Virus record (IMG/VR): IMGVR_UViG_3300025133_000236
Location: 1-42,604 of that record
Length of the DNA stretch: 42,604 bases
Source of the DNA: a virus
Direction: 5' to 3' (one strand)
The notes beneath the pieces are model-generated. The model did not search any database. It was not told the DNA's origin and worked only from the letters and a program-made list of their open reading frames with translations. The position numbers were made by a program, and so were the translations under genes. Below are positions 19,167 to 35,419 of the stretch, piece by piece (position 1 is the first letter of the stretch; the number at the start of each line of letters is the position of its first letter).

Positions 19167-19174
19167 GTTAGAGA

Positions 19175-19657: not shown

Positions 19658-19683
19658 TTGTTATTATGTATTGTAGTTTATGT

Positions 19684-20114: not shown

Positions 20115-20763
20115 AGTATTCCTCCGCTTTCTTCAGCACCGTAACGATGTCATTGGGGATGAGTTGTTCGTCGAACATACCCATTGGGGTCTTGGCTGAC
20201 GTAACCCCATCCGTGTTAGTCTGGAAGAAGTATTCCATCTCCTCGGTCTTCTCGTTCTTGCGTACCTCGGTGAACAACACCATGAGAAACTCCTTCTCTA
20301 TCGCGCCTTCGTGAACTTTACCTTGCACCTTGACCCTGCGGTGCGAGGACTCGCCGCCTGTAATCTGCGGAATCTTCACGATGTCGTCTACGGCGGTGAA
20401 AATAATTGTAGCCTTATCGTTCTTGATGGAGTCTAGCATATTGCGGATAGTCCTGTTGTAGAACGACCAGATATCGTAGCCCTTGAACGAGTTGGTAGCC
20501 AACGTGTGAACCTGTTCCACGTACTTGGTGAACGACTCGACCACTATGGTCTCGCAGTCATCTTTCTTTAGAACCTTCTCAAGTTCCCTAGGGAAAGCGT
20601 TGGCGTTCTCCACGGGAATGATGTTGAACCTACTAGCCTTGGGAAAAGGAAATCCCTTACGCTCCAAGTCTAGAATGTAGGTTGTCTTCGGGTCTAGGTT
20701 ACGCAACGCTGTACTCTTACCGCTGCCGCTGTGACCTACGATTGCTATTAGTGGTTTATACAT
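20107..20763 (-). CDS. Sak4-like RecA-fold ATPase
   Basis: 218 aa. Walker A is GHSGSGKST at 10-18, a Walker B-type strand is ETIVVES at 71-77, and a third strand (ATIIFTAV) follows near residue 120. This is the minimal RecA/AAA_24-type fold of phage Sak4 ATPases, which act with an SSB in strand annealing. An SSB-like protein and a RecB-type nuclease are in the same operon. Start and stop overlap both neighbours by a few bases. Annealase role is inferred from family and neighbours. Confidence 0.72.
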   Translation of the reverse strand: MYKPLIAIVGHSGSGKSTALRNLDPKTTYILDLERKGFPFPKASRFNIIPVENANAFPRELEKVLKKDDCETIVVESFTKYVEQVHTLATNSFKGYDIWSFYNRTIRNMLDSIKNDKATIIFTAVDDIVKIPQITGGESSHRRVKVQGKVHEGAIEKEFLMVLFTEVRKNEKTEEMEYFFQTNTDGVTSAKTPMGMFDEQLIPNDIVTVLKKAEEYYA

Positions 20764-21145
20764 TTTCTTTTTCTTCTTCCGTTTTTGTTCCTGTTGTTAT
20801 TTCTATCTTAGTCTCTGGTTCAATAACACCGTAGAAGGTGTCGAATTCTAATTGTTCTTCGTTAGGCCATTGGTCACGCAGTAGCATAAGCCCAATGAGT
20901 CCGTAGTTTGCTATGTCCTTGAAGGTATCCTCCAACGATTCGTTCTTGGGAGACTCCTCCTTGTCCATCAACAAGTTTGCGAGTCGTTCTACCTTGTCGT
21001 ACAAGCGTACGCTAAGACCCTTGACCCCAAACCGGCTAATGTTTCCCGGCCCGTAGTCTTTCTGCTTTGCATCCAGCAGGCTAACACACTCCGCTGCCAA
21101 GAATAGCGCACGCTTGCCTGCAAGGGTGTCAAGTTGTATTTTCAT
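20756..21145 (-). CDS. DUF1599-like, nucleotide-related helical protein
   Basis: 129 aa. The core has KQKDYGPGNI, then a helix with RLYDKVERLANLL and SLEDTFKDIANYGLIGLMLL. The 'KDYG..N' start and the D-x-A-Y/N-x-G helix match DUF1599 proteins, thought to belong near MazG/dUTPase-like nucleotide enzymes. The C-terminus is acidic and threonine-rich. A role in the phage nucleotide pool or DNA modification is plausible; no catalytic test is possible here. Confidence 0.6.
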   Translation of the reverse strand: MKIQLDTLAGKRALFLAAECVSLLDAKQKDYGPGNISRFGVKGLSVRLYDKVERLANLLMDKEESPKNESLEDTFKDIANYGLIGLMLLRDQWPNEEQLEFDTFYGVIEPETKIEITTGTKTEEEKENV

Positions 21146-21504
21146 GTGTCGAGGTTTGCACCAATTGACTCTAAGCGATCACTGACCTCTTCTAAGACGT
21201 TAGCCACAGTCTGTACAGAATTGTCAATTGCAGCTACCCTCCCCACTAATACAGACATATTCTGTATAGACTTATCTATTGCGGTTAGCTTACTTCCAAG
21301 CATATCTGCTGCTGCAAGTATCGCTGAGGTATGGCTGACACAGTCGGCGGTCAGCATACCTGTCATCTCGTTATCCTGTAGCGTAGCTTCAAGAGTTTTG
21401 TTAAGGGACTCCATAGCTGCCGTGTAGCGTAGCATGGTAAAGTTATCCATGCCGTCTTTGTAGGCGTCGTGCCTAGCCGTTAATGTTTTCTGTTGTACTT
21501 CCAT
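21142..21504 (-). CDS. Unknown helical protein
   Basis: 120 aa, almost wholly alpha-helical, with heptad-like spacing of Leu, Val, Ile and Met in residues about 70-118. No catalytic or metal-binding motif is seen. ATG at 21504 lies inside the end of the preceding small gene (overlap about 32 bp), and a GGAGAAAG lies just upstream. It resembles coiled-coil adaptor or chaperone-like phage proteins, but no family is recognised. Confidence 0.6.
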   Translation of the reverse strand: MEVQQKTLTARHDAYKDGMDNFTMLRYTAAMESLNKTLEATLQDNEMTGMLTADCVSHTSAILAAADMLGSKLTAIDKSIQNMSVLVGRVAAIDNSVQTVANVLEEVSDRLESIGANLDT

Positions 21505-21658
21505 GTTCTTTCTCCAATTCTTCTAGTCTTTCTTCTAACTCATGTACCCTACCCCATGCGAAGGCCAGCGAGCTGTACGACATCTCATGGGCTGCCTCCA
21601 ACTTACGAGTCAGGTCTACTACTTGATCTACTGCGCTTATGTAGTATTCTTGTGTCAT
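21473..21658 (-). CDS. Unknown small coiled-coil protein
   Basis: 61 aa. It starts with ATG at 21658, overlapping the stop of the RecB-type nuclease. The second half (VHELEERLEELEKEHG) is a clear short coiled coil. The final residues overlap the start of the next gene in another frame. No family is recognised. It may associate with the nuclease or with the following coiled-coil protein. Confidence 0.55.
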   Translation of the reverse strand: MTQEYYISAVDQVVDLTRKLEAAHEMSYSSLAFAWGRVHELEERLEELEKEHGSTTENING

Positions 21659-22572
21659 AGTTGAAACTGTAGGGGATCGTAGACCTTGTGTACGTAATCC
21701 ATGTTGACGATGGATTCTCTATCGTTGCCTGAGTTCGCCGTACATAGGGCCGTGAACGAGCAGAGACCAAAGCGAGTCTCGCAACAGGCGAAGTTGCTAA
21801 GGAAGATATCCTCGCCGTCTTTCTCGTCCCATGTCTCGAAGTAAAACTCAAGCTTGCGAGTTATCCTATTGACAAGGTCATCTATGTAGGCTTGGAATTT
21901 ATCCAGCCTATCCTTGCTGAACTCGAATATCTCGCTACGCTCAAACTTGTTCTTGTTGGAGCGACCAAGGAACAGACCGTTAATCATACAGCCTACCTCC
22001 TCGTCTGGGAATAGTCTATGCCAGATGAGGTTGTAGAACATTAGCTGGGGTGAGACCTTGTAGGATGCGAAGTAGGCAGCGGGACTATAGGCTGCCGTGG
22101 ATTTGTGGTCTACGATAACGGGACGACCAAAGTAGGTTCCGACAAAGTCTATTGTGCCACAAAAAAGTATGTCCAGCTCTGGCGTTTGTAAGTACGGGTA
22201 GGCGAAGCGCATTTCCAGCAGGGGGTCGGGGTCTTTGCGTACCTCCAACCCTGTATCCTGCTTGAAGTATTGGCTGAGCAGGTTGACTAGATGAGCTAAG
22301 TCACGGAAGTCCTTGTCGGGTACAAGCACATCTGCGTAGTGGTCTATCGCTGCGTTAACAGCTTTCTCCTCGTCACCATCTGCGTAGTACGACTCCAAGG
22401 CTTTGTGTACTGCCGTGCCGTACTCCATCTTATGATTCGAGTTCCGTTTGCGTAGGCCACGGCATAACATATACCATAGTCTACGTTCGCAAGCTGACTC
22501 CTTTATTAAGGATGCGTCTATCTTTATGATGAGCTTGCCCTCTTCAGTTTTTTCTAGGTTAAGTAATTCCAT
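21655..22572 (-). CDS. Fe-S cluster RecB/Cas4-type exonuclease
   Basis: 305 aa. The nuclease core has His56 (GTAVHKALE), Glu120, Asp142 (GTIDFVG), Asp155-x-Lys157 (IVDHKS) and the QLMFY helix at 176-180, the PD-(D/E)XK RecB-type set. Cys28 and a C-terminal group Cys264, Cys271 and Cys277 have the spacing used in AddB/Cas4-like enzymes to bind a 4Fe-4S cluster. It would resect DNA ends for recombination with the Sak4-like and SSB-like proteins of this operon. All active-site residues expected are visible. Confidence 0.85.
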   Translation of the reverse strand: MELLNLEKTEEGKLIIKIDASLIKESACERRLWYMLCRGLRKRNSNHKMEYGTAVHKALESYYADGDEEKAVNAAIDHYADVLVPDKDFRDLAHLVNLLSQYFKQDTGLEVRKDPDPLLEMRFAYPYLQTPELDILFCGTIDFVGTYFGRPVIVDHKSTAAYSPAAYFASYKVSPQLMFYNLIWHRLFPDEEVGCMINGLFLGRSNKNKFERSEIFEFSKDRLDKFQAYIDDLVNRITRKLEFYFETWDEKDGEDIFLSNFACCETRFGLCSFTALCTANSGNDRESIVNMDYVHKVYDPLQFQL

Positions 22573-22774
22573 AGGTTTTCTTCAGTAGTTTTGCTTTATC
22601 TAACAGCGTTGGTTTCTCCTTTGGCACACGTTTCTTTCGTGCCGTCTTCGGCTTGGCTAACTCTACCTTCGGCTCGGTTAGCTTTAAGTAACTGTCGAAA
22701 TGTTGGAGTAGTTCCTCATCCGACATGGACTCTAGTTGTTCTACCGTGCAGTCTAGTAGTTCCTCAATGGTCAT
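22559..22774 (-). CDS. Unknown small charged protein
   Basis: 71 aa. The N-terminus is acidic (TIEELLDCTVEQLESMSDEELL) and the C-terminus basic (KTARKKRVPKEKPTLLDKAKLLKKTYGI). It overlaps the RecB-type nuclease start by 14 bp. The pattern resembles short linker or adaptor proteins with a basic nucleic-acid-binding tail. No family is recognised. Confidence 0.6.
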   Translation of the reverse strand: MTIEELLDCTVEQLESMSDEELLQHFDSYLKLTEPKVELAKPKTARKKRVPKEKPTLLDKAKLLKKTYGIT

Positions 22775-22853
22775 TTAGATCTATGATAATGAGGGCTATA
22801 AATAGCAGGGTAAAAAATATAGAGGCTGCGGCTATGACTATCAGCGGCATCAT
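22764..22853 (-). CDS. Tiny one-span membrane protein (29 aa)
   Basis: A 29-codon frame starts at ATG 22853 (a second ATG follows), overlapping the stop of the preceding gene as ATGA, and ends at TGA 22764. Its product is almost entirely one hydrophobic helix (Ile, Leu, Val, Ala, Phe) with a DLNDH tail. The stop lies inside the next gene. The 75-bp gap would otherwise be empty. It is a typical phage membrane micro-protein; function unknown. Confidence 0.5.
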   Translation of the reverse strand: MMPLIVIAAASIFFTLLFIALIIIDLNDH

Positions 22854-23401
22854 CTTACGACACTAAGCGTGTCCTTGGCCGTGTCGAACTCGAAGTCTAC
22901 AAGTTTCTGCTGTTCTTCCAGCCACTTGATGTCTTCGTGCTTTACTATAATACGATCTCGCTTAAAGGTATCCATTTCCTTTGCGTCCTGTAACCAAGCA
23001 AGCAGTTCTGCCTTCCAGACTTTAGAGTCTGCAAATTCATACTGTAGTTCCTTGGCGTTAATCTGATTGCGTAGTGTGTCCTTGAAGTAAATCAAGACAC
23101 CCGTGTCTGTCTTACGGAACGCAACCTGAGTGCGTAGCTCTGCATAGATTGGCCCGTATTCTGTGGAGTTGTCAACGAGAAACTTTAGACCATCGGTTAA
23201 CTTTACATAGAGAGTGTTAACCGTGTAGCCTGTTTCCTCAGCAGTAACTAGAATATCCGACTTGCCATCGAGTAGCTTATCTATGATAGGCTTGATCTTG
23301 TGAGCATTAGTTGGACTGTATGTTGACCGTCTGGCAGAACCCTTTGAGCGCATCTTACGCAAAAGTTCTGAGTGATTCTGTAAACTTGTATTGTTATCCA
23401 T
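22850..23401 (-). CDS. Unknown protein, possible DNA-binding N-terminus
   Basis: 183 aa. A basic N-terminus (residues 14-35) is followed by a helical segment that resembles an HTH (about 50-75: ILVTAEETGYTVNTLYVKLTDGL). The C-terminal half is charged and helical. An A-rich stretch precedes the ATG. It is the second gene after the sigma-54-type promoter region. No family is recognised with confidence, and DNA binding is a suggestion. Confidence 0.55.
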   Translation of the reverse strand: MDNNTSLQNHSELLRKMRSKGSARRSTYSPTNAHKIKPIIDKLLDGKSDILVTAEETGYTVNTLYVKLTDGLKFLVDNSTEYGPIYAELRTQVAFRKTDTGVLIYFKDTLRNQINAKELQYEFADSKVWKAELLAWLQDAKEMDTFKRDRIIVKHEDIKWLEEQQKLVDFEFDTAKDTLSVVR

Positions 23402-23516
23402 AGAAATTAAAAAAGATAGCGCAGTGTTTCACCAAAGTATAAACGCTAGTAATTACTCTGTTCGCGGGTCTCCCACGACACCATGCTACGCTACCTTTGT
23501 GTTTGGATGGCCTACA
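23402..23516 (-). other. 115-bp gap between leftward genes
   Basis: Between the stop at 23517 and the start at 23401 there is no frame longer than about 12 codons on the minus strand, and no clear promoter or terminator. It may contain a leader for the next gene. Confidence 0.4.
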
Positions 23517-23930
23517 CTAGGCAGCCATCAGTTCCTCCATACGAGCAAGGTATTCTTTACCCTGCTCAATTTCGCCAGCGGCAAAAGCTGCCTTGGCCCT
23601 CTTGAAGAGCTTGCCGGGAGTCTCCCCTCCGCCGCTCTCTGGAGTCCACTTGTCAGCATCCTCCTTGGTGTAGATTACCAAGTCAGGGTACTTCTCAGTC
23701 AACTCGGCCCTCAGTTCTTCAGTCGTCTTGCCGTTAGGCTTCAACGAATTCTTTACCGTTGACCTTATCCGTGCGCTGATCTGCTGATTCAGTAGACCAA
23801 GCGTTTTCTCTTCTCCATACCTAGAGACTACGTCAGACGTAGCTTTGAACTCTGGTACGTTAAACTTGAAGTCTTTCCAATCACCAGACTGGAAATGCTC
23901 CACCTCGTAGGTTGTATCTATCGTTTGCAT
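23517..23930 (-). CDS. Unknown protein, first gene after the leftward sigma-54-type promoter
   Basis: 137 aa, soluble and mixed alpha/beta. The N-terminal part (EVEHFQSGDWKDFKF) is followed by a helical domain, with a Gly-rich linker (ESGGGETPGK) and a final helical segment. It is the first gene of the leftward replication block; its ATG is about 80 bp downstream of the predicted start from the -24/-12 promoter. No catalytic motif or family is recognised. As the first middle gene it could be abundant and may act early in replication. Confidence 0.65.
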   Translation of the reverse strand: MQTIDTTYEVEHFQSGDWKDFKFNVPEFKATSDVVSRYGEEKTLGLLNQQISARIRSTVKNSLKPNGKTTEELRAELTEKYPDLVIYTKEDADKWTPESGGGETPGKLFKRAKAAFAAGEIEQGKEYLARMEELMAA

Positions 23931-23961
23931 TGTATTATCTATCTACTAGTTTCGCGCCGTG

Positions 23962-23970
23962 TAACTGTTA
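23962..23970. promoter_or_regulatory. TAACTGTTA palindromic-type motif
   Basis: TAACTGTTA lies between the leftward -24/-12 promoter and the first gene. The same nine-base motif (TAACAGTTA on the other strand) appears at 24046-24054 and 31982-31990, all within about 100 bp of a sigma-54-type promoter. It may be a protein-binding site. No count over the whole window was done. Confidence 0.3.
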
Positions 23971-24022
23971 GCGCAAATTTTTATCTGTGTTAAGAGGGAA
24001 AAAATCTTAACGATTACTATAG

Positions 24023-24039
24023 AGCAGGAATCGTGCCAA
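24023..24039 (-). promoter_or_regulatory. Sigma-54-type promoter for the leftward replication block
   Basis: Read on the minus strand, the sequence is TTGGCACGATTCCTGCT. It has the consensus -24 block TGGCACG and a -12 block (CTGCT, one change from TTGCT). GG (24037-24036) and GC (24025-24024) are separated by exactly ten bases. Transcription would start near 24012, about 80 bp before the ATG at 23930. AACTGTT lies directly upstream. Host sigma-54 RNA polymerase would need an AAA+ activator, and such a gene lies just upstream in the early operon. Recognised by sequence only. Confidence 0.72.
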
Positions 24040-24045
24040 CTCAGT

Positions 24046-24054
24046 TAACAGTTA
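24046..24054. promoter_or_regulatory. TAACAGTTA motif upstream of the -24 element
   Basis: TAACAGTTA on the plus strand lies about ten bases upstream of the leftward -24 element (reading leftward, AACTGTT then AACTGAGT then TGGC). The rightward sigma-54-type promoter has AACTGTT at the same position. It is a candidate site for an accessory protein at both promoters. Confidence 0.35.
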
Positions 24055-24068
24055 AAAGTTTTTTTCTT

Positions 24069-24101
24069 AGCCTATAGGCTCTAAGGAATTTCCTTACAGG
24101 G
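24069..24101. repeat. Two adjacent palindromes upstream of the leftward promoter
   Basis: AGCCTATAGGCT is a perfect 12-bp palindrome, followed within four bases by TAAGGAA-T-TTCCTTA. They lie about 60-90 bp upstream of the predicted leftward transcription start. No T-run follows in either direction that would make an intrinsic terminator. An upstream binding site or a processing hairpin is possible. Confidence 0.4.
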
Positions 24102-24111
24102 AAAGACACGT

Positions 24112-24295
24112 TTACTTTAACTTTGGGCTGTAACAGGTCTGCTTATAGACCAAGTCGGAGCGAGTTGCACAAGATGCACAGTACACAAGGATTCCGTTTT
24201 GACCTGCATCTTTACCAATCGCCACATTGTAGTTACCAGTTGTAAGTCATGCTAGGGTTGTAACCAATCGCTACGTTACGTGTACCTGTGGTTAG
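24112..24295 (-). pseudogene. Decayed tail-fibre (YadA-like repeat) fragment
   Basis: Between the sigma-54-activator-type gene and its downstream region, the minus strand encodes LTTGTRNVAIGYN, then after a frameshift TTGNYNVAIGKDAGQNG and a Cys-containing tail to a stop at 24112. NVAIG repeats are the signature of YadA-like head/collar repeats and also occur in the fibre gene at 42301 (SVAIG, NNVAIG). There is no start codon or ribosome site, and the two repeat units are in different frames. It looks like the remains of a copied or recombined fibre end. Confidence 0.7.
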
Positions 24296-25074
24296 TGGTC
24301 TCCCTGCCAATGAAAGTCTAGGCTGTCCGGGCCTAGGACTTTATATTGCTTGGCCAGTCGGAGTAGCTCACGGACGTTGCCTGCCAGTATGGTGGGGCGT
24401 GGGTCCCAAGAACTATCTTTCGCCGCGTCATACACCGACTTGATGAGGTCTTCGTACTCTGGCTCAGTCAGGGTGTCCTTGAGGATAAGCCTTGCGTCGT
24501 CCATACGCTGCCTCAATGGCTTTAACTTTAACCTGAAGGCGGCTATCCTTTGGTATAAGTCGTTACGAAACTGAGAGTCTATGCTGTTCGTGGCAAAGAT
24601 AAACCTACCTGTGAACTCTGTGTCCTCGTTCTCTCCTATCCTACGAAACCTGCGTGTCTCTACAAGACGCAGGAGTAGAACCTGCAGAGAAGGGGATATC
24701 TCTCCGATCTCATCGAGGAACAACGTACCCTTGGCAGCGGCTATCAGTAGCCCCATACGATTGCTTACGGCTCCGCTGTAGCTTCCCCTTACATGGCCGA
24801 AGAGTTCCGCCTGTATCATGGAGTCAGGGATGGACGCTAGGTTAAGCGCAATGAATCTACCATCCCGTCTACCATGTAGCCTACGCGCAACAAGCTCCTT
24901 ACCCGTACCGCTCTCGCCTGTGATTAGGACAGCATCGTCTAGCGGCGCAAGCTTATCGGCTTGCTTTAGCATACGAATACAATCCTCGTCTTGCGTTAGG
25001 AACTCGTACTCTTTTGGAACCTCGTATGCTTTGAGTAGCTTAGCGGCTGCTTCCCTTAAGTCTACGTCAGGCAT
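24292..25074 (-). CDS. Sigma-54 activator-type AAA+ ATPase without DNA-binding domain
   Basis: 260 aa. Walker A GESGTGKE is at 53-60, and the sigma-54 contact loop is GSYSGA at 97-102 within ELFGHVRGSYSGA (family consensus GAFTGA). Walker B is TLFLDE (117-122), sensor I ATN (161-163), arginine finger region FRNDLYQR (169-176) and sensor II GNVREL (232-237). Only about 45 residues precede Walker A and about 23 follow sensor II, so there is no receiver and no HTH. It would remodel sigma-54 RNA polymerase at -24/-12 promoters. It is the last gene of the early operon. F-to-Y and T-to-S in the loop are conservative. Confidence 0.82.
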   Translation of the reverse strand: MPDVDLREAAAKLLKAYEVPKEYEFLTQDEDCIRMLKQADKLAPLDDAVLITGESGTGKELVARRLHGRRDGRFIALNLASIPDSMIQAELFGHVRGSYSGAVSNRMGLLIAAAKGTLFLDEIGEISPSLQVLLLRLVETRRFRRIGENEDTEFTGRFIFATNSIDSQFRNDLYQRIAAFRLKLKPLRQRMDDARLILKDTLTEPEYEDLIKSVYDAAKDSSWDPRPTILAGNVRELLRLAKQYKVLGPDSLDFHWQGDH

Positions 25075-25954
25075 CTCTGTCCACCTCCTTGAACTTTCTC
25101 TTGACTAGCTTCTTGAAGGACTTCTCTATACTCTCGACGGTAGTAAGACCAGAGACATCATACCAGAACACTAGCTCAGAACTGTCCTGTTGTATCATAA
25201 CTTCGGAGTCATCGAGAGTACCCATTAGGATCTGCGTACCGTAGCCACCGGCCTCGTAGTAACCGTACTGTAGTCTGACCTTGTCGGACTCTAGTTCTTG
25301 GAGATGGAATAGGAATCGGCGCATCATAAACGTAGCGCACATGGAGATACACAGCCTATCTGCGTCGATCATTTCTTGGAAGTCCTTGATCTTAACGTAG
25401 GTTGCGTGTGCTTCTCCGCTACCCCGACAGGGAAAGACTGCGATGACTTCGCAACCGTAGCCCAAAGACTCCAAGCGGTCTACCGCCTTGTATATCAAGG
25501 CTCCCCTACGGAAGTAACACTCCTCTGGTATACCGTTATGATTCCAACAGTTCACGTAGATCGTGAGCAGACGCTTGCCTGCAGCTATTATCGTGTCGGT
25601 TTCCTCTTCCTCTAGGAAGTGTTCGGGGCTGGCGTCTGTCGTTGCTGCCTCTATGTTTACTATACCACCTGCTATGGTGGGTACGTACTCGGTGAGGTAC
25701 TGTTCGAGCGGGGCTATAGACTCCATGATGGTGTCGTCTAGCTCAGTTTTCTCCAGCCTGTTGAGACCCCAGCCTCCAGCGTCGAGCAAGAATACAGCCT
25801 CCGTCCATGACTTCGTACCGTACCAATCGTCGTTGTCTACGTCCTTATGACTGGCGTAGCTTCGTAGCTTTTTGATGTCGCTACGCTTCGGGTCTTTGTC
25901 TAGGGCAGAGCGGAACTCTTCCCATGAGTATATGGTTTTGTGTGCTATTTTCAT
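25067..25954 (-). CDS. Unknown protein, partner of the AAA+ genes
   Basis: 295 aa. An N-terminal helical part is followed by alternating hydrophobic strands and helices (LLTIYVNCWN, CEVIAVFPCRG, DRLCISMCATFMMRRFLF), a Rossmann- or von Willebrand-like pattern. It starts between a MoxR-type ATPase and the sigma-54 activator-type gene, overlapping the latter by 8 bp. MoxR ATPases usually work with a vWA-type partner, so this is the natural candidate. No MIDAS metal motif (DxSxS) is visible, which argues against an active vWA domain. Confidence 0.5.
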   Translation of the reverse strand: MKIAHKTIYSWEEFRSALDKDPKRSDIKKLRSYASHKDVDNDDWYGTKSWTEAVFLLDAGGWGLNRLEKTELDDTIMESIAPLEQYLTEYVPTIAGGIVNIEAATTDASPEHFLEEEETDTIIAAGKRLLTIYVNCWNHNGIPEECYFRRGALIYKAVDRLESLGYGCEVIAVFPCRGSGEAHATYVKIKDFQEMIDADRLCISMCATFMMRRFLFHLQELESDKVRLQYGYYEAGGYGTQILMGTLDDSEVMIQQDSSELVFWYDVSGLTTVESIEKSFKKLVKRKFKEVDRDA

Positions 25955-25959
25955 GTTTC

Positions 25960-27006
25960 TTAGAATGGAGTTTTCTCGTCGTCGTTGTCTAGGATAGTCT
26001 TGATGTCGTCGGGTACAGTAGAGGACTTGTCGGCCTCTTCCTTCTTAGGAGCTATCGGCTTACGCTTCTCGCTGTAGACTTCGAGCAGCCTACGGCGTTG
26101 CTCTCCCTTGACTGACCTGAATACCGTAGCGTCCAAGGCATCGAACTCATCCCAACCTGCCTTGGACATTAGGTTAATGCACTGGCGTAGGTTACGAGTG
26201 GCAAAGATTACCCGTATCTTGTTGGCCTCGGCGTACTCTCGCATCGCTTGGAACCGTTCGATAAACTTATAGAACTGAGTCTCGGTTATCTTTGGCTCAT
26301 CGACTACCTTATACAGGGAGAGAGTCCACAGCTTCTCTGCATTCTTATCGTACGGCCACTCGACACATACGAACTCGTTAAGGAGGGCTACGTCTAAGGC
26401 GTTGCGGCCTACATACTCACGGTCTGGCCCTAGCCCCCACGTGTTTGCGGTACACATAAGGTGGCACTTGGGGTTGACTTCCTGCATACCGTACGGCATA
26501 TAGATATGACCGGAGAGTATGCCCTTGATAATCATAAGCACATTCGAGTTGCCGTTGTCTATCTCGTCGATCACGGCTAGTCCACCTTCTTGGATTATCT
26601 TGGTGAACACACCGGGAACGTAGTTGCCCGTGGCATTGTTGAAGCCTATCAAGTCGTGGGTTGCCGTCTGCTTGTTGACTGCGCGTATAGCGTAGTGCTT
26701 TGCATCCAAGGCTTTCTTGACTGCGTGAGTTACCCTAGTCTTGCCGCTGCCCGTAGGCCCAATAATCATTGCGGGTTCTCCAGACCCCATGACCTCTAGC
26801 AAAGGCTTTAGCTGCTGGTGCTGGCCCTTGATGTCGGTGTAGTTTATCACGTTATGGCTAACGTGCTGCTTGATCTCCAAGACTACGTTCTGTTGTGTAG
26901 TCTCAGCGATTCGTTTGTCTAGCTCGCTGAATTTTGTAGCGAACTCGTCCTTGACGGAGGATATAATTTCCTCGGTCATACCTTTCATCCAATTATGTTC
27001 TGTCAT
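25960..27006 (-). CDS. MoxR/CobS-type AAA+ ATPase
   Basis: 348 aa. Helical N-terminus to about residue 60, Walker A GPTGSGKT at 83-90, Walker B LAVIDE (143-148), sensor I region CTANTWG near 186-191, then a helical lid and an acidic C-terminal tail. This matches the AAA_5/MoxR-CobS type, often a chaperone-like ATPase that remodels a partner. A clear AAGGAG precedes the ATG. The stop lies five bases before the next gene. The substrate is unknown; phages use related ATPases, but the role here is not established. Confidence 0.78.
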   Translation of the reverse strand: MTEHNWMKGMTEEIISSVKDEFATKFSELDKRIAETTQQNVVLEIKQHVSHNVINYTDIKGQHQQLKPLLEVMGSGEPAMIIGPTGSGKTRVTHAVKKALDAKHYAIRAVNKQTATHDLIGFNNATGNYVPGVFTKIIQEGGLAVIDEIDNGNSNVLMIIKGILSGHIYMPYGMQEVNPKCHLMCTANTWGLGPDREYVGRNALDVALLNEFVCVEWPYDKNAEKLWTLSLYKVVDEPKITETQFYKFIERFQAMREYAEANKIRVIFATRNLRQCINLMSKAGWDEFDALDATVFRSVKGEQRRRLLEVYSEKRKPIAPKKEEADKSSTVPDDIKTILDNDDEKTPF

Positions 27007-27292
27007 TGTTATTTTCTCCTTCTTGGTCTTGGTCTTGTAAGCTGGAGATTACCCAGCCTACGTCTATGTATCTATCTAGCTTGAACGCTATGCGTCCTTT
27101 AACGAAGCCATCTTTTTTGCTGCCTAGGGCAGCACAGTTATCCAGAGTGTAGCCTTTGATTTCATTGTTGTCCTGTAGGAATTCGAATATTATAGGCAGG
27201 TTATGCTTATAGGTCTCGAATATATCTTCCTTGTCTGTCTCTAGCACGAACCTATGGTTCAAGTCTGTGTAGTCGTTGTCTATAGGGTTCAT
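26993..27292 (-). CDS. Unknown small acidic protein
   Basis: 99 aa, acidic (many Asp and Glu), mixed alpha/beta. It starts at ATG 27292, one base after the TAG region of the membrane protein, and overlaps the MoxR gene by 14 bp. The C-terminus is Gln/Asp/Glu/Asn-rich. There is no recognisable family. It belongs to the early operon by its tight spacing. Confidence 0.6.
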   Translation of the reverse strand: MNPIDNDYTDLNHRFVLETDKEDIFETYKHNLPIIFEFLQDNNEIKGYTLDNCAALGSKKDGFVKGRIAFKLDRYIDVGWVISSLQDQDQEGENNNDRT

Positions 27293-27293
27293 G

Positions 27294-27452
27294 CTAGTAG
27301 AACAGTATGTAACCTAGGCCTAGGCCAGCGAGCCAGCTTACAGCGTACAGCGTGAGCCAGCCTAGCCATATCAACAAATACACAGGTAGTCTGCGTAGGT
27401 TGAAGCGTATTATTGCGTACATTATCTCTATGTTTCGTTCGTGTTTGTTCAT
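27294..27452 (-). CDS. Small membrane protein (52 aa)
   Basis: A 52-codon gene whose ATG overlaps the previous stop as ATGA (27452) and that ends with TAG at 27294, one base before the next ATG. The N-terminus is charged; residues about 22-51 are a long hydrophobic segment with Trp, Leu, Gly and Tyr that can form one long or two short spans. It fits the early operon spacing and fills a stretch that otherwise has no gene. Inner-membrane location is likely; function is unknown. Confidence 0.6.
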   Translation of the reverse strand: MNKHERNIEIMYAIIRFNLRRLPVYLLIWLGWLTLYAVSWLAGLGLGYILFY

Positions 27453-27604
27453 TGTTCTTCGTGGTCTATCATTTCATTTATGTGCATCATATCCTCGACA
27501 TCTGCCTCGGATAGATATTTACAGAAGGCCGTGATTACTGTGTCCTTGTCCAGTAGTCCATCCTCTATCATTTCATACAGTAGGTTTGTGTATTTTCTAG
27601 TCAT
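27449..27604 (-). CDS. Small acidic helical protein (51 aa)
   Basis: A 51-codon gene with a perfect AGGAGG four bases before ATG 27604. The sequence has a helical start (NLLYEMIEDGLLD), a middle with VITAFCKYLSEADV and an acidic, Met-rich end (DMMHINEMIDHEEQ). Similar short acidic proteins with 'EDGLLD...L.YLSE..V' occur in many phages, without known function. Start and stop overlap both neighbours, which supports expression. Confidence 0.65.
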   Translation of the reverse strand: MTRKYTNLLYEMIEDGLLDKDTVITAFCKYLSEADVEDMMHINEMIDHEEQ

Positions 27605-27815
27605 CTTCCCTCCTTATAGTGTTGTCTTTGGGGGTTTCTAGGGATTCAATCCAGAGGTACTCTAGCACTAGCCAATTAAGGTTAATCGGACAGGGTTCTT
27701 CTACTACACCCCAAGTGCCTTGGCCTGCAGTTCTTTGCAAACATTCTACACTTGATAGGCGTACCAACTCTCGGCTGCTTTCGGTATACTCTACGCAATG
27801 TTTTAGGCTATTCAT
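27597..27815 (-). CDS. Unknown small protein
   Basis: 72 aa. A Cys pair (Cys7, Cys25) and a Trp-rich middle (TWGVVEEPCPINLNWLVLEYLWIE) are the most marked features. It overlaps the helicase gene by 8 bp at its start and the next small gene by 8 bp at its end. No family is recognised. It is accepted mainly for the continuous overlap pattern in the operon. Confidence 0.5.
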   Translation of the reverse strand: MNSLKHCVEYTESSRELVRLSSVECLQRTAGQGTWGVVEEPCPINLNWLVLEYLWIESLETPKDNTIRREDD

Positions 27816-29370
27816 TTGTTTCGTCTTTCTCTATGATGGTTAGGTTTTCTTCCTCTTGTTCTTCGTACTCCTTATCGGTAGCTATGTCCTGCTGTACTGT
27901 ACCATTAGTGAACACGTTGACCCAGTTCTCACGTGAGCCTACGGAAGCGTTGATGCAGTCTAGCTTAGCCTCCACTCTGGAACATACTGTTTCCTCGATG
28001 GTGTCTCTGTACCATACGACCTCTTGGGTTGTGTCGGAGATAGAGGTGATGCGGTGGCCTCGGCCTAGTGCTTGGACTAAGTCTATGGCCGACCACGTTG
28101 GGGGTATGATTATATGCCGTGGCCTAGCCTCCTTGCGATCATGGTGCAGGCTGAGACCTACGCCACCAGAGCGCATGGTGAAGAGTAGGATATCGGCCTC
28201 GCCCTCTTGGAACTTCTGTCGCTGGGCCTCACGCTTGGTAGGAGTCTGGCCTCCGACGATGTGGGATATCTTATCCTCGTCCAAGCCTAGCCTCTTGAGT
28301 TCCCTGTAGACCATACGCATGGGTTCAACAAAGTTACAGACCACTATAGTCTGCCGCCCCTGCTCAACTGTGTCTATCGCACGCTTAGCCATGCGTCCTG
28401 CCCTAACTTCCTCGGCGCCTTCGCGGAACTTCTGCATGGCGACTAGCATTTCGTTGCGGCCAAAGTTAGCGTTACGGTTCTGCTCTTCGCATTTCTTTTT
28501 GAAGGCTTGGAAATAGCCATCGTAGTGTTCGCGCTCGGCCTCAGTCTCGAAGTCGATGAGACGGCAGCGTGTGTGGGTCTTGTGCTTGTAGCGTACCTTG
28601 GGTACGAACACAGCGTAAGGCTGCATTGCTTTACGTAGCCTTTCCATCTGCGCTTGGCAGAGTTGAGTCGGCCTACCCCATCGGGCTATCCTTTGGAGTA
28701 GGTTGGGTACGGTGTCTGTAGTGCAGGGTTCGTCATGGATAGTCATACCTACACCAAGGACTACGCTACGCGCCTCGCTGACTTTCTGGTAGGGCGTAGC
28801 TGAGATAAAGATACGCTTGACCCCTTGTGGGATAGACCACGAGAGTTGAGTCTGCGAGGAAGTGTCGTTCTTTAGGCCTTGGCACTCGTCGAAGACTACC
28901 ATAGATGGCATCGACATAGGTTTCCAGTTGTAGAGGTAGGTCTCGTAGTACGGGTGCTTAGTCTTGTCCCAGTATATCTTCTCGGCTAGGTTGCCTCGGA
29001 AACTAGCGTAGGATATGGGGAAGATCGTACCGATGAGGCCGAACTGGTTTATAACCTCTAGAGTCTGGGGTATGACAGCAGCCGGGGCTACCCATAGGAT
29101 AGGCATCGGCCAGTCAGACTTCAGGTCTAGGAGTTTGTTGTCTAGCAGGTACTTGATTACAGGGAGTACCATATAGGTTTTACCTAGGCCAGCATGGGCC
29201 TGTAGGAGTATCCCCTGTTGGGACTGTAGCTTAGAGACTGCGTCAACGGCAGCCTTGATTTGGAAGGGCATCTTCTCTACCCCTGCTTCATCGACTATCT
29301 TCTCGATAGCTTCTTGGACTATGTCCGTACTCTTAGATACGGTAGTCTCCGTGTTTGTTGTTGTTGTCAT
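27808..29370 (-). CDS. SNF2/DEAD-like superfamily 2 helicase
   Basis: 520 aa. Walker A is HAGLGKTY at 59-66, motif II is DECQ at 161-164, motif III SATP at 190-193, and the C-terminal half has LLFTMRSGGVGLSL (about 395-408) and motif VI QALGRGHR (433-440). These are the motifs of SF2 helicases of the SNF2/DEAD type. It would move on or unwind nucleic acid in an ATP-driven way, typical of phage replication or repair helicases. It starts at ATG 29370 with an A-rich leader. It is the largest early gene. Confidence 0.85.
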   Translation of the reverse strand: MTTTTNTETTVSKSTDIVQEAIEKIVDEAGVEKMPFQIKAAVDAVSKLQSQQGILLQAHAGLGKTYMVLPVIKYLLDNKLLDLKSDWPMPILWVAPAAVIPQTLEVINQFGLIGTIFPISYASFRGNLAEKIYWDKTKHPYYETYLYNWKPMSMPSMVVFDECQGLKNDTSSQTQLSWSIPQGVKRIFISATPYQKVSEARSVVLGVGMTIHDEPCTTDTVPNLLQRIARWGRPTQLCQAQMERLRKAMQPYAVFVPKVRYKHKTHTRCRLIDFETEAEREHYDGYFQAFKKKCEEQNRNANFGRNEMLVAMQKFREGAEEVRAGRMAKRAIDTVEQGRQTIVVCNFVEPMRMVYRELKRLGLDEDKISHIVGGQTPTKREAQRQKFQEGEADILLFTMRSGGVGLSLHHDRKEARPRHIIIPPTWSAIDLVQALGRGHRITSISDTTQEVVWYRDTIEETVCSRVEAKLDCINASVGSRENWVNVFTNGTVQQDIATDKEYEEQEEENLTIIEKDETNE

Positions 29371-29376
29371 TTTCTC

Positions 29377-29769
29377 TCATGGTTTGTAGTTTATACTTTC
29401 GTCTAATCTGTAGGGATGGAACTCGTGTAGACCAAGGCCTAGTTTGATAGGGCCATAGTATTGTACGCCCTCTTTCTGACGTAGCCTATGACCTGCCTCT
29501 ACCAGCTCTAGTATACCATTGAGTCTTTCTCTCGTTAACTTTGTAGGCTTACCGGCAAACTCTAGTCGTAACATACGAAACTTCTGATAGTTACTGTATG
29601 TTTTGCCTATTGTGTCTAGCGTAGCTATCCTTCTACCGTGAAGGTACATATAGGTACGACCACAGTTTTCTCTGTTTTTGTGGACTACTGTGTTTCCTAG
29701 GCTGTGGATTTGTTCTTTTGTGAAACATTCTAGGAATACGGATGCTGCTTTGTAGGTTATTTTTTTCAT
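29377..29769 (-). CDS. Unknown basic protein
   Basis: 130 aa, rich in Lys, Arg, His and Tyr. It has a mostly mixed structure with short strands (RTYMYLHGRRIATLD) and a helix near KLTRERLNGILELVEAGHRL. It is placed between the helicase and small genes of the early operon; its start overlaps the previous stop (4 bp). A basic protein expressed early could bind nucleic acid or interact with host RNA polymerase. No family is recognised. Confidence 0.6.
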   Translation of the reverse strand: MKKITYKAASVFLECFTKEQIHSLGNTVVHKNRENCGRTYMYLHGRRIATLDTIGKTYSNYQKFRMLRLEFAGKPTKLTRERLNGILELVEAGHRLRQKEGVQYYGPIKLGLGLHEFHPYRLDESINYKP

Positions 29770-29993
29770 CGTACTAGCACACCTCCTTCGTTTAGCTTAT
29801 TGGTTATATCCACTACGAATGATTCGTAGTCTCCGATGTCATAGGTAGGTCTCATTATATCAATAGACCACCTTGCTGCGTTCTCTACGTATTCTTTTCG
29901 TAGTTCGTTTAGGTACGGTGGTAACGTAACAAAACGTGCGTGGCATAGCTCTACCACATTATCTATACTAGCGTTTCTTAGTCCTTTGTTCAT
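29766..29993 (-). CDS. Unknown small protein
   Basis: 75 aa, helical with a Tyr/Asp-rich second half (MRPTYDIGDYESFVVDITNKLNEGG). CACAGAAA precedes the ATG. It overlaps the next gene by four bases. The role is unknown; early, small and host-directed functions are common for such genes. Confidence 0.55.
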   Translation of the reverse strand: MNKGLRNASIDNVVELCHARFVTLPPYLNELRKEYVENAARWSIDIMRPTYDIGDYESFVVDITNKLNEGGVLVR

Positions 29994-30004
29994 TTTCTGT
30001 GTAG

Positions 30005-30029
30005 TAGCCTAGGTTACTGGCCTAGGCTA
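30005..30029. repeat. Perfect 9-bp hairpin between early genes
   Basis: TAGCCTAGG and CCTAGGCTA form a perfect 9-bp stem around a 7-base loop, spanning the stop codon of the upstream gene (30022-30024). No T-run follows in the leftward direction, so it is probably an mRNA stability or processing element rather than a full terminator. Confidence 0.45.
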
Positions 30030-30486
30030 AAGTCTTTGCGGCCATCTTCGCTAGGGAGTCTACGCTTTTGGTAGGTAGCTCGTAAGCTGCAGCACGGGAT
30101 TCTTCTGGACTCTGGCCTAGGGTCTCGATGAAGTATCGTATGATAAGTTCGAGCCGCCGGGTACGTTCCGCGATCTTCGCAGACTCCATCTCTCGCCGCT
30201 GATTCATTACGGCCCACGCTTGGCTATTCCACATCCGAACTTTGGTAGACTCTAACTCTGGCATCCGTTTGTCGTTCCAATCTAACGTGTAGTCTTTGCC
30301 GGGGAACTCAAGTACTACAGAGTTGCACTTGGCAGAGGCTATCTTGCTGGCTTGTTCTAGGGTAATCTCTACGCTATCGTACCGTAGGTAGTCATCGTGC
30401 ATAGGATTAGTCTTGCAGATCTTGAAGTCTACCCACACTTGGCAGGTAGCAGGATCATCCAAAAGGTAGTCTAGGTTTGTTTTCAC
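30022..30486 (-). CDS. Unknown early protein
   Basis: 154 aa. The first half is mixed with strands (VWVDFKICK, SVVLEFPG), the second half is helical and ends in an Ala/Lys-rich helix. It starts with MKTNL, the same five residues that begin the next upstream gene, and both starts share the surrounding bases. The ATG overlaps the preceding stop. No motif is recognised. Confidence 0.6.
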   Translation of the reverse strand: MKTNLDYLLDDPATCQVWVDFKICKTNPMHDDYLRYDSVEITLEQASKIASAKCNSVVLEFPGKDYTLDWNDKRMPELESTKVRMWNSQAWAVMNQRREMESAKIAERTRRLELIIRYFIETLGQSPEESRAAAYELPTKSVDSLAKMAAKTLA

Positions 30487-30821
30487 GATTCTATTTTAGG
30501 GTAAAGATTCCTTTGGCCTAACTGCCAACCTAACGTACTGCGGAGTCCTTCGTAGGCGAAGCGTAGCTTGCGTATGTTATCTTGATGATCCAGAACGTCA
30601 CGGTCAGCATAAAGTTTTTCTACGATACCGTGAAGGGCTGCCATAGGATTCTCCATACGCTCCCGTATATCATCTTGTACGATAGGTGCGATTGCATTTT
30701 GTACAACTTTTCTAGTCTCGTGATCCCATTTCTTAACGTCGTCGGTTGAGAGTTCGGTATGCCACGTAGACAGTAGTGGTAGTCTAGGTTTGTTATTTTG
30801 TTTTTCTAGGTTTGTTTTCAT
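30483..30821 (-). CDS. Unknown first gene of the early operon
   Basis: 112 aa, charged and helical. It starts at ATG 30821, about 16 bases downstream of the predicted start of the strong sigma-70 promoter, so it would be the first message from that promoter. It begins with MKTNL, as does the next gene. First early genes in phages often act on the host, but no family or motif is recognisable here. Confidence 0.65.
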   Translation of the reverse strand: MKTNLEKQNNKPRLPLLSTWHTELSTDDVKKWDHETRKVVQNAIAPIVQDDIRERMENPMAALHGIVEKLYADRDVLDHQDNIRKLRFAYEGLRSTLGWQLGQRNLYPKIES

Positions 30822-30843
30822 AGCTATTTTCTAAGCAACCGTC

Positions 30844-30871
30844 ATTATACCACAGTCTACGCAAATGTCAA
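30844..30871 (-). promoter_or_regulatory. Consensus sigma-70 promoter for the early operon
   Basis: On the minus strand the sequence has an exact TTGACA (-35, 30871-30866), a 16-base spacer and an exact TATAAT (-10, 30849-30844). Transcription should start near 30837. It drives the leftward early operon from 30821 towards the sigma-54 activator-type gene. Both hexamers match consensus, which is rare by chance. Confidence 0.85.
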
Positions 30872-30981
30872 CAACTTTCTACGTGTTAGTTTTACCTAAC
30901 CTACTGATAATACTTGCTTTACTTTATCATTCGCGTGGGTATGTGGTGGGAGTGAGAGAGGGTAGTCTAGGTGGGGAAGAG

Positions 30982-31010
30982 TGTAGGCTAGGGATTCTGT
31001 AGGCTAGGGA
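30982..31010. repeat. Two exact 13-bp direct repeats
   Basis: TGTAGGCTAGGGA occurs at 30982-30994 and again at 30998-31010, separated by three bases (16-bp period). The position upstream of the rightward gene suggests regulatory protein sites or short iterons. Confidence 0.45.
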
Positions 31011-31039
31011 AAGCGACAGAAAATAATTGAAAGTATTTA

Positions 31040-31068
31040 TTGACATTCGGGAGCTAACTGTCAAAATC
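31040..31068 (+). promoter_or_regulatory. Candidate promoter for the 31117 gene
   Basis: TTGACA at 31040-31045 is a perfect -35 sequence; 17 bases later is a poor -10 (AAAATC, 31063-31068). TGTCAA at 31059-31064 makes an inverted repeat with the -35. The promoter may be weak or activated, or the inverted repeat may be an operator. Confidence 0.35.
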
Positions 31069-31073
31069 TCCGA

Positions 31074-31092
31074 ACTGGCCAACGTGGTCAGT
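31074..31092 (+). promoter_or_regulatory. Inverted repeat, possible operator
   Basis: ACTGGCCA and TGGTCAGT are separated by three bases (7 of 8 positions pair). The site lies between the candidate promoter and the 31117 gene. It is a possible binding site for a phage repressor such as the ribbon-helix-helix protein. Confidence 0.35.
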
Positions 31093-31116
31093 CTAGTAAT
31101 AAAGTAAATAAAGAAA

Positions 31117-31554
31117 ATGAAAAACATACTGGAACACGTGGCAGCATTTGTTGCCAAGTTTGCTGTACTGCCAAATCGTCGTAATAATGATCAATGGCAG
31201 ATTGACCCCAACACAAGTCTTGGTGCTATTGCTGATTTTTTTCAGGAGCAGCAAGATCGCGAGACCACAGACAAAGAGCACAAGCCCTTAGAGGGTATGG
31301 AGTGCGTCCGCCGGTACATGATCAATTACTTGAACAGCAAGGTTCAAGACTTGGCTACGGCGGACACAGACAAAGAGAAGGCCAAAGATTTGCTGGCTAA
31401 GCGAGTTAATGGCTGGTGGAAACCTACGGAGCAATCGTCGAGTGTTGCTGACTTGAAAGATAAGGTCGAAGTCTTGCAAGCTTTGGCGGATGCTTATGAC
31501 GAAGGCGATCTAAAACGAGTCGCAGAGCTAAAAGAGAAACTTGCAACCATGTAG
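31117..31554 (+). CDS. Unknown helical protein in its own transcription unit
   Basis: 145 aa. The N-terminus has a hydrophobic helix (NILEHVAAFVAKFAVLP), then charged helices and a coiled-coil-like end (LKRVAELKEKLATM). It stands alone between the divergent control region and a strong intrinsic terminator, and points the opposite way from the early operon. Such isolated, separately controlled genes in phages may encode host-takeover or regulatory functions. No family is recognised. The ATG is preceded by an A-rich leader without a strong Shine-Dalgarno. Confidence 0.72.
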   Translation: MKNILEHVAAFVAKFAVLPNRRNNDQWQIDPNTSLGAIADFFQEQQDRETTDKEHKPLEGMECVRRYMINYLNSKVQDLATADTDKEKAKDLLAKRVNGWWKPTEQSSSVADLKDKVEVLQALADAYDEGDLKRVAELKEKLATM

Positions 31555-31574
31555 CCTTTCGATCCATTGAGCGC

Positions 31575-31606
31575 AACCCGTAGCATTTACTTGCTACGGG
31601 TTTTTT
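31575..31606 (+). terminator. Strong intrinsic terminator
   Basis: AACCCGTAGCA (31575-31585) pairs perfectly with TGCTACGGGTT (31592-31602) across a 6-base loop, and a T-run extends to 31606. It ends the transcript of the single gene at 31117 and isolates it from the late promoter. Confidence 0.9.
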
Positions 31607-31621
31607 GTGTCTGGTGGTTAA

Positions 31622-31799
31622 GGTTAACTAAAAACTTAGCTAACGGGGAAAAGCGAAAAGGGGCAGAGGGGAAAGAAGGAAGTCTCTCACGTGTATATTA
31701 AATATATATATAAGATCATATAATATATTCAAAGTCTTAACTCCTTTTAACCTTCCCCCTCTCTTTTCTACCTACAGTTAACTAATTTTTTAGTCAACC
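31622..31799. repeat. Large inverted repeat around an AT-rich core
   Basis: The 25-base arms 31622-31646 and 31775-31799 match at 21 of 25 positions in inverted orientation. Inside, a purine-rich strand (about 31645-31681) is mirrored by a pyrimidine-rich one (about 31741-31770), and the centre (31693-31730) is nearly all A and T. It is a good candidate for a DNA-unwinding/origin region or a large cruciform. Confidence 0.6.
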
Positions 31800-31981
31800 A
31801 TAACCATCTGTTACAATCTACAAGCCATAGTCTAAAGACTATTTTACCCCTAGACTGTCAATAAGCGTAGACTAAAACCAGTAAATACCGTAATCTAGAA
31901 AGAGGGGGAGGGGGGCCAGAAAGAAGTCGCTTACAGAACTATCACCCATTCTGGCAAAATGACCAAAATAACAACTTGACC

Positions 31982-31990
31982 TAACAGTTA
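31982..31990. promoter_or_regulatory. TAACAGTTA motif upstream of the late promoter
   Basis: The same nine-base motif as at 24046-24054. It lies about 30 bp upstream of the rightward -24 element. A partial copy, AACTGTT (32003-32009), is about 10 bp from that element, the same place as in the leftward promoter. Confidence 0.35.
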
Positions 31991-32017
31991 AAAAATACTA
32001 CCAACTGTTGAGCGGGT

Positions 32018-32034
32018 TTGGCATCAAAGTTGCT
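32018..32034 (+). promoter_or_regulatory. Sigma-54-type promoter for the late block
   Basis: TTGGCATCAAAGTTGCT contains TGGCAT (-24) and an exact TTGCT (-12), with GG (32020-32021) and GC (32032-32033) separated by exactly ten bases. Transcription would start near 32045, about 105 bp before the ATG at 32150. It heads the rightward packaging and capsid genes. With the leftward site it forms a pair of promoters that only an activator-driven sigma-54 polymerase should use. Confidence 0.75.
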
Positions 32035-32045
32035 TTCGTCAAGGT

Positions 32046-32165
32046 GTGGACGTTAAAGTCAAGGTTAGGTTTGAGGGGTTCTCGAAGAGGGCCGAGGAGA
32101 TTTGTCGGGGTACAGCCTTGATGAGGTACTACTTTAGGAGACAGAGGCAATGGCAAGAAGACTAG
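32046..32165 (+). CDS. Possible 39-aa basic micro-protein in the late leader
   Basis: A frame from GTG 32046 to TAG 32163-32165 encodes a 39-aa peptide with a strand of alternating Val and Lys (DVKVKVRFEG), then a basic helix (YYFRRQRQWQED). It begins almost exactly at the predicted transcription start and overlaps the next gene by 16 bp. The start lacks a proper leader, so it may be only an open stretch; the amino-acid pattern is nonetheless protein-like. Confidence 0.25.
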   Translation: MDVKVKVRFEGFSKRAEEICRGTALMRYYFRRQRQWQED

Positions 32166-35100
32166 TACGGCAGTTTAAGACACAGGCGGCCCCGGCGGAT
32201 GCCAGAGGCTACACACCGCAGGCGGTGGCCCAAGTGATAGCTCCCGCTGCGGTTGATGACCCTACAGTACCAAGGCCAGCAGCGCACTACGGCACGTTAG
32301 AGACCCCTGTGGCGCGACCCGCAGTTGCTGCCGCAGTTGACGCATACATACCGCCGCCAGCGGTGGCCCAGACTCCCAGAACTATGGGAACTCCAGCCCT
32401 ACCCCCTGACTGGTATCCAGAAACACCCAATCGAATCTGGTCTCCAGACGCAACCACCGGAACACGAAGAAACACCGGCGCAGACGACATCTACGACATA
32501 CCCCCGGTACAAAGACCCACGGTAACCACGACAAACGCGCCCATAAATGAAACAGGGGTTTTTCCTCAGACAGAGCCAGAATTTGTGGAGGCCACGCTTA
32601 CACCAAACGTCCCGCAGCAACCTTGGTTCGTACCCCCTACAGCAACGGCAGCAACCGTACAGCTTCCCCCGCAAAGACCTGTCGCTCCCCCTGACTACGG
32701 GCAGCCACCTGTACCTGTCGATATAACCCCTGAACAATTTACTCTACCCTCACCTACGGTTTATCCGGGTGAAAACATACCTCTACCAGCCTACGACAGA
32801 GGTATTATCCCTGAAGTACCCCCAATAACGACCCCTATAGAACGCCCCACCCCTATAGACATAGGCTACATCGAACCTGAACAACCTATCGACCTTACTC
32901 CCGGCCCCCAAGTAACCGCAACCGAACAATCCTTCTACAACCCCCAACCCGTCGAAACTGCATACGCTGCCCCTATCGAAGTACCCTACCCCCAACCTCA
33001 ACTAACAGAATCAAGCCCAGCGGCACATTACGGAGAACTCCCAGTACCCCAAGACGAGATAACAAACCTCATAGACACCATCATACCAAAAACCATAGAC
33101 ATCCCACAAAAAGGCCCACAATGGGTAGAAGACCCCCACGGTCTGGCAACCCAAGAACTCATAGACCAATCTGGCTTTACCCAAACAGACCCCTCTATCT
33201 ACTCTCCACCACTCCCAGCTCAACCAGTAGACCAAGCACCCGAAATAGACGAAACCGTTCTACAAGTACAACCTCGTTACGAGGAAACCGTCGTACCAGA
33301 AACCATTCAACCACTCTACACACCCCCAGTGGAGACCATACAACAGCTACCCATAACTCAAACCCCAGAGCTGCCGATGCCAGAAATCCCCCCTTACGAG
33401 GGATCGGAAGATATAATAGAATTGTCTACTGATATACAACCTATTGTAGATGACCAAGCACACTCAAGAGTGGGTACAGGTAACTATAATATTGTAGACG
33501 ACTCAGAAATCCCGGTAGAACAAGCTACAGGTGGCACAGTAACGGGTATGGAGAATTTACCCCCCGGCGCACAGTTTGAAGACTTCCACAGAAAAACAGC
33601 CCAAGAATCTCCACGTAAAGGTATAGACTATGCAACACCCGACCAAGAATTTACAAAAGATCCCAACGCAGCAGTTATCGCAGAAATCCTAGAAGAAGGC
33701 ACAACGTCACCCGCAAGTGAGCCAACAGTTACAGCAGACATCGCAGGTGAGGCAGATACAGGTGAGGTAGATACAAGTTATCCGGGTGTGGACGCAGGGG
33801 AGACTTTACCGGCTGGAACAACACTATTTCCAGATGTAGATACAGGTGAAGACGAGGGTGGTCATGGCCTCGGCGAGGATAGTCTGCGAGCCTTGGCCGA
33901 GGATGAGCAACCAGAGCCACGCAAAGAACCCACGCTTGGCGGTCAAGCAGCCCCCGATCCGACTGTTACCCAACCCCCAGTCGGTCAGGGTGGTCAGGGT
34001 GGTTGGCTATACACAGGCCCACAAGGCTACGCACAAACACGCTGGTCTACCTCTGGCGCAGCCCAAGGGCCACCTGTCGTAAGTCACACACCCTCTGTAA
34101 CCGGCCCACAAGTAAACAGGGAGACCGGCGAAATAACAGAAGCCCCACTCTCTTGGTGGTCTAACCGCGCTGGTTACGACTTTATGCAACCCGGTGCATC
34201 GCTGCCTACAGGTAAGCCGGGAGGGAATACAGACGACACAGGCAGCACAGGCAGCATAGGCAGCAAAGACAAGAGTGGTGGTTTAGGAGGTAGTTTCACC
34301 GCTGAGCAGGTTGCAGAGATGGCAGGCGGCAGCATAACCCCTGTCCTAGACCACCTACATCCCGGTGCGACTAGTGATGGCCAGACAGTAACCTTTGGAG
34401 ATATAGGTAACTACGATGATTGGGTAGATGGAGTGCTTGATCTTCGGCCAGACCTCAAAAGCATAAACGACCTAGGCTATGAAAAGAGAGATGCTGAAGG
34501 TAATCGTGTAGGCTGGGGAAACCACGCTCTAGACGGATTCAACCAGATAACAGGTACAATCAATAAGGTATTCGACTTTATGGGCGATCCAAGTAAGAAG
34601 TTTACCGCAGCCATTCTTGAAGACTTCGGAATGAAACCCACAGAAGGTAGTAACCTGAAAGAACTGGCAAAAAACCTAAACAAGTGGCACGAAGAATCTA
34701 GCCAGATGTGGGAAACCAGCGAAGACAAGGCTTGGGGAAGAAAGTGGAACGATCTTACAAAAACCCAAGAGTACGGTGATATGCAGCCTCTCGGCATCTT
34801 TGCTCTACTAACAAACCCACCAGCAGCAGTGGCCATGACAGCCAACAGCCTACTCTACGACATCAAGAATGCTGCAGCGGGAATGTTCAATGACAACCCC
34901 AACTACAAGGGAAACATGGCACAAGATATACTCAATGGTGCTTTCCACTTCCTAGGTAAAGGAGCAAAAAGCGTAGGTTCCCTCTTCGGTAAGCTGGGTA
35001 AAGCCATCGGCGGTAAACTCAACTTCACAAGCAAGGACATGAAGAACGACCCAATGGAGGTCTCTAGACAGCTTCTCTACACGAGCAAGTACGGCCCTTC

Positions 35101-35416: not shown

Positions 35417-35419
35417 CCC

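Follow-up and report, generated by a model that had tools for sequence, protein, structure and literature searches.

A virus recorded in IMG/VR (IMGVR_UViG_3300025133_000236) very probably switches on the genes for replication and for the virion by driving the host sigma-54 RNA polymerase with an activator of its own, as judged from the 42,604 nucleotides analyzed here (the window). Known phage switches employ phage polymerases, phage sigma factors, antiterminators or activators of the sigma-70 polymerase. The second main class of bacterial sigma factor, sigma-54, requires an ATP-driven activator for promoter opening and is usually associated with the control of nutrients, pili, and the envelope. 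An earlier note on this DNA had proposed that a sigma-70 promoter drives an early operon whose activator then fires sigma-54 promoters, a model that is supported here, with its predictions on activator, sites, and polymerase holding in relatives. That proposal was confined to one phage; the layout of activator and promoters recurs across a broad group of uncultured phages. Tailed phages of this group, with one ancient clan of activators, probably use host sigma-54 for their lytic program (the promoters for replication and late genes and, in some lineages, for the capsid gene), with a clade-specific layer of TAACNGTTA palindromes, and would constitute an undescribed class of ATP-driven switch. 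Within full-text literature, a coverage that leaves most subscription journals outside, neither a phage-encoded sigma-54 activator nor a phage of this kind was found, in line with the earlier remark that no well-described phage is known to run its replication and late genes in this way.

The IMG/VR record is linear and the window is a linear fragment, incomplete since, compared with G030, it lacks some of the DNA that separates the capsid genes from tailA. A leftward block (30821-14767) comprises an early part ending with the activator gene and then a replication part, and a rightward block runs from 32150 to the window end with virion genes including TerL (Table 1). If the genome is circularly permuted, positions 1358-14612 probably continue the late block, as the gene order of G030 indicates. 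The sigma-70 promoter previously placed at the head of the early operon was confirmed as a perfect match. It is not generally conserved, most other near relatives having no site of at least 10/12; G005 has an 11/12 site near its early operon.

Table 1. Features of the proposed sigma-54 switch and of the gene blocks in the window
Feature	Positions	Strand	Description
Early sigma-70 promoter	30844..30871	-	TTGACA-16-TATAAT, TG extended -10, 12/12 matches
Early operon	24292..30821	-	From ORFs, Pfam, PHROGs; small ORFs, DNA helicase (27808-29370), MoxR-like AAA (25960-27006), DUF7192 (25067-25954); activator is the final gene
Sigma-54 activator gene	24292-25074	-	PF00158, E=1.5e-46
TAACNGTTA site	24046..24054	.	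Upstream of promoter 1
Promoter 1, TTGGCACGATTCCTGCT	24023..24039	-	GG-N10-GC; 19.1 bits, best in window; kept in all near relatives
TAACNGTTA site	23962..23970	.	Downstream of promoter 1, in leader
Replication/recombination operon	14767..23930	-	Placed behind promoter 1; w23517, w22850, PDDEXK nuclease, DUF1599, Sak4, SSB-like, PolA, DUF3987 primase/helicase, SprT-like
TAACNGTTA site	31982..31990	.	Upstream of promoter 2
Promoter 2, TTGGCATCAAAGTTGCT	32018..32034	+	14.7 bits, second best in window
39-aa basic ORF	32046..32165	+	Directly behind predicted late start; relatives have similar sequence
Late block	32150..42296	+	From TerL match and gene order in relatives; 1088-aa protein, TerS (?), TerL, portal, scaffold (?), capsid

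Sigma-54 sites were scored with a matrix that approximates the published consensus, and -24/-12 promoters were taken as YTGGCACG-N4-TTGCW with GG-N10-GC, above chance and ahead of genes, which is what was found at the phage sites of the window and its relatives. The two best sites of the window are those that the earlier note had assigned to the heads of the replication operon (promoter 1) and the late block (promoter 2). Both are intergenic and co-oriented with the called genes, which begin 93 nt and 116 nt further on, and transcription from them is predicted to start near 24012 and 32045, respectively. The score of promoter 1 was reached anywhere in only 1% of order-2 Markov shuffles. That of promoter 2 was reached somewhere in 45%, so that on its own this site proves little and, from the window alone, is not significant genome-wide. 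Shuffled sequence gave 1.0 site of at least 14 bits per window on both strands, and chance expectation on the right strand of the 597-nt intergenic stretch concerned is ∼0.007 such sites. The 39-aa ORF begins at about the predicted late start and would thus be nearly leaderless. From the activator stop to promoter 1 (24060-24291, -), imperfect 48-49-nt repeats with broken frames encode TGNYNVAIGNDAG-like peptides in the style of YadA heads, and vary in number and length among relatives.

A layer missing from the earlier account of the promoters, whose sites otherwise stood, is the palindrome TAACNGTTA, present in the window as three copies, all close to promoters 1 and 2. Of the 19 copies in six near-clade contigs, 17 are no more than 120 bp from a sigma-54 promoter, a zone that makes up 1.2% of the sequence, and this association is the strongest among all 256 palindromes of the same form. 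Distances from the promoter centre are regular (∼19, 40, and 64 bp), roughly two helical turns apart. The palindrome is a putative operator, at which a phage or host DNA-binding protein may repress or recruit; a binder was not found, the near-clade gene w31117 giving no HTH signal, and no comparable shared palindrome was seen near the promoters of distant lineages. In the w23517 leader (23930-24020, -), short complementary arms (GCGC/GCGC and TGCAC/GTGCA) flank the downstream copy TAACAGTTA; by eye these arms covary in relatives, and the whole may represent either an RNA hairpin or an extended operator.

The modest score of promoter 2 leaves room for a scheme in which sigma-54 acts only at promoter 1, for the replication operon, and the late block is transcribed in some other way. 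Consistent with this, the capsid gene of the window has no sigma-54 site ahead of it, unlike distant relatives, in which a third site precedes that gene. However, promoter 2 recurs at the corresponding position in G001, G002, G005, G010, and G012 with GG and GC intact, several of these five near relatives having different spacers, and TAACNGTTA also lies upstream of it, which makes a single sigma-54 switch unlikely, if the best of the alternatives to control of both blocks.

Almost every IMG/VR relative confirmed by tblastn has a sigma-54 site immediately behind the activator stop. Downstream of the activator, on its strand and no more than 500 bp away, 25 of 35 clusters (90% identity) had a site of at least 15 bits, as compared to none of the 35 with a reversed matrix or on the opposite strand (Wilcoxon p ∼3e-7); at 60% identity the figures were 7 of 14 clusters and 0. 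These activator-linked sites include lineages only ∼38% identical, with different spacers, which differ at the free promoter positions yet retain GG-N10-GC. In L029, L030, L047, L063, and L064, the first 500 bp behind the activator contained no strong site; in G016 (L029) and G020 (L030 cluster), a 17.7-19.6-bit site lies farther on, before w23517. The pattern TGGCAYN6TGCT occurred at ∼87 sites in 34 records versus 2 for the reversed pattern, and whole-contig scans of 16 genomes placed sites before the w23517 ortholog and before the late block. Twenty-nine of the 46 sites of at least 15 bits in 16 contigs were intergenic, intergenic DNA being 6% of the sequence (p=7e-24). Chance origin of the -24/-12 sites was rejected by the reversed matrix and pattern, the opposite strand, shuffles, and activator-less phages. 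Because the first relatives had been chosen by their activator, others were also chosen by TerL and PolA; all longer ones covering the locus (eight records) possess the activator, followed by a site of 18.6-21.1 bits.

These data also bear on the idea that host activators for nitrogen, pili, or stress fire the phage promoters, with the phage protein aimed mainly at host sigma-54 targets such as surface structures. In favor of this idea, host promoters might also be reached by an activator that lacks a DNA-binding domain, and sigma-54 is widespread in the host phylum. However, the activator adjoins promoter 1 across lineages having little else of the early region in common, and strong sites are 4.7 times denser than in five phages that lack the activator (6.6 versus 1.4 per 100 kb), where -24/-12 sites are few. 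Firing by host activators is accordingly improbable, and somewhat more so than restriction of sigma-54 to promoter 1.

By sequence and predicted fold, the gene at the end of the early operon encodes a single-domain sigma-54 activator, as the earlier note had recognized in describing an AAA+ protein with the sigma-54 contact loop. The 260-aa protein is one AAA+ domain, with a PF00158 score of 158.6 bits against a curated cut-off of 20.2, and matches FleQ/NtrC-type structures in the PDB by sequence (8.8e-43). Its predicted structure (pLDDT 88) retrieved sigma-54 activators as all of the top 50 Foldseek matches, with FleQ the best structural match (Z 24.1, rmsd 2.7, 222 aligned). Walker A (GESGTGKE), Walker B (FLDE), the arginine fingers (FRNDLYQR), and sensor II (GNVRE) are intact and retained across 24 aligned phage sequences. 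The contact loop, LFGHVRGSYSGA, reads GSYSGA; relative to GAFTGA it carries three conservative changes (A to S, F to Y, and T to S), with loop length and the G and A positions unchanged, and most relatives have GSYTGA, GAYTGA, GSFTGA, or GAFTGA. Single changes at F and T of the loop often reduce activity (PMC3162934), which makes the loop the softest point of the model.

Overlooked by the earlier note, the protein has no DNA-binding domain: a Fis-type HTH was sought in the activator and is absent, the chain stopping right behind sensor II, and an N-terminal sensor domain is likewise lacking. Absence of the HTH does not exclude membership among bEBPs, since FlgR, CtcC, and FleT, classed as type Ic by Francke et al., also lack it, and type Ic activators including PspF do without a sensor and/or DNA-binding domain (PMC3162934). 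The phage protein resembles type Ic activators in its AAA+ domain with a GAFTGA-type loop, and FleT in lacking both other domains; unlike them, it is phage-encoded, falls in its own clan, and would drive viral replication and virion genes. Least probable of the alternatives is that the protein serves replication or packaging after losing contact with sigma-54, the sites being kept for other reasons, as the GSYSGA variant of the window lineage and TyrR-like proteins that retained the fold and lost the loop (PMC3162934; compare VpsR) might suggest, because loop length, G/A positions, and all catalytic motifs are retained, most sister lineages have GSFTGA or GAFTGA, and linked -24/-12 sites exceed chance.

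A maximum-likelihood tree (78 sequences) placed all 33 phage activators on one side of a branch with 100/98 support and the 45 cellular and host-like activators on the other. A single origin of the phage activators is likely on this tree, short of proven because its cellular sequences are the nearest found and not an exhaustive set. GenBank matches labeled as phage were left out, being mostly host DNA inside phage records. A close cellular donor was rejected (best cellular matches only ∼34-47% over the domain), as was contamination by host activator genes, the phage clan standing apart from cellular proteins. Structural relatives sought in BFVD were limited to weak MoxR/AAA matches (∼17% identity). 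The PHROG 7998 profile (339 positions) matches the activator (E=4.7e-35); this family, to which no function is assigned, already contains relatives, so the protein had been unexplained rather than unseen.

Neither the window nor any of 12 relatives gave a match to T7-type RNA polymerase (PF00940), as the earlier note had held for phage polymerase in general (phage T7 control, 1e-109), and a search of the same genomes for the sigma-54 gene rpoN, with a working positive control, found none. The host phylum is likely Verrucomicrobiota, as inferred from the best GenBank relatives of TerL, which are Akkermansia phages (191 bits), and from a prepilin-like H-X9-DG protein resembling Verrucomicrobiota proteins. 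The gene for the latter (13635-14612, +) occurs in the window only, is absent from relatives, and is probably host-derived. RpoN is carried by 144 of 145 Verrucomicrobiota genomes. The virus appears to infect marine bacteria.

Read together, the genes, motifs, and sites seen in the DNA, with their statistics, conservation, and placement, suggest a sequence of events in which the phage activator serves both blocks. Upon entry, host sigma-70 polymerase would start at the perfect promoter (30871) and transcribe the early operon, the last gene of which would yield a minimal activator, an AAA+ ring that should be active once made, since it has neither a sensor nor a DNA-binding domain. Host sigma-54 polymerase could already sit closed at the phage -24/-12 promoters; acting from solution, the ring with ATP would remodel it, whereupon leftward transcription of the replication operon would begin at promoter 1 and rightward transcription of the virion genes at promoter 2. 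In the near clade, both promoters are probably adjusted by another DNA-binding protein that acts at TAACNGTTA.

Mu Mor/C, P2 Ogr, and T4 MotA/AsiA are phage activators of host sigma-70 polymerase, which the proposed switch resembles in that a phage protein made early turns the host polymerase toward middle or late promoters; it differs in the sigma factor, the need for ATP hydrolysis, and an activator without a DNA-binding domain. The sharp early-to-late transition recalls T4 gp55, SPO1 gp28, and T7 gp1, which are phage sigma factors or RNA polymerases, unlike the window phage, for which the searches revealed neither a sigma-54 of its own nor a T7-type polymerase. The human-gut phage DP SC_2_H4_2017 (MT121960.1; L251, 21038-24502) encodes a PF00158 protein with GAFTGA and, unlike the window phage, has no good -24/-12 site near the gene, perhaps an independent case. 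If the model is true, phages supplying the activator alone gain a tight off/on switch from one small gene, infection would depend on host rpoN, and natural minimal activators with strong promoters would be available for study and engineering. The layout of activator and site is a marker for such phages that can be read from genomes, and predicts sigma-54 in their hosts.

Other features of the window include a winged-helix protein (19767-20114, -), present in the window only, that weakly matches Penicillinase_R and the activation domain of T4 MotA. Scanned for Rfam families and tRNAs, the window gave no matches. The gene at 31117-31554 (within 31040-31602, +) has its own promoter-like site, TTGACA-16-CAAAAT, and a strong terminator-like hairpin lies by it at 31575-31602.
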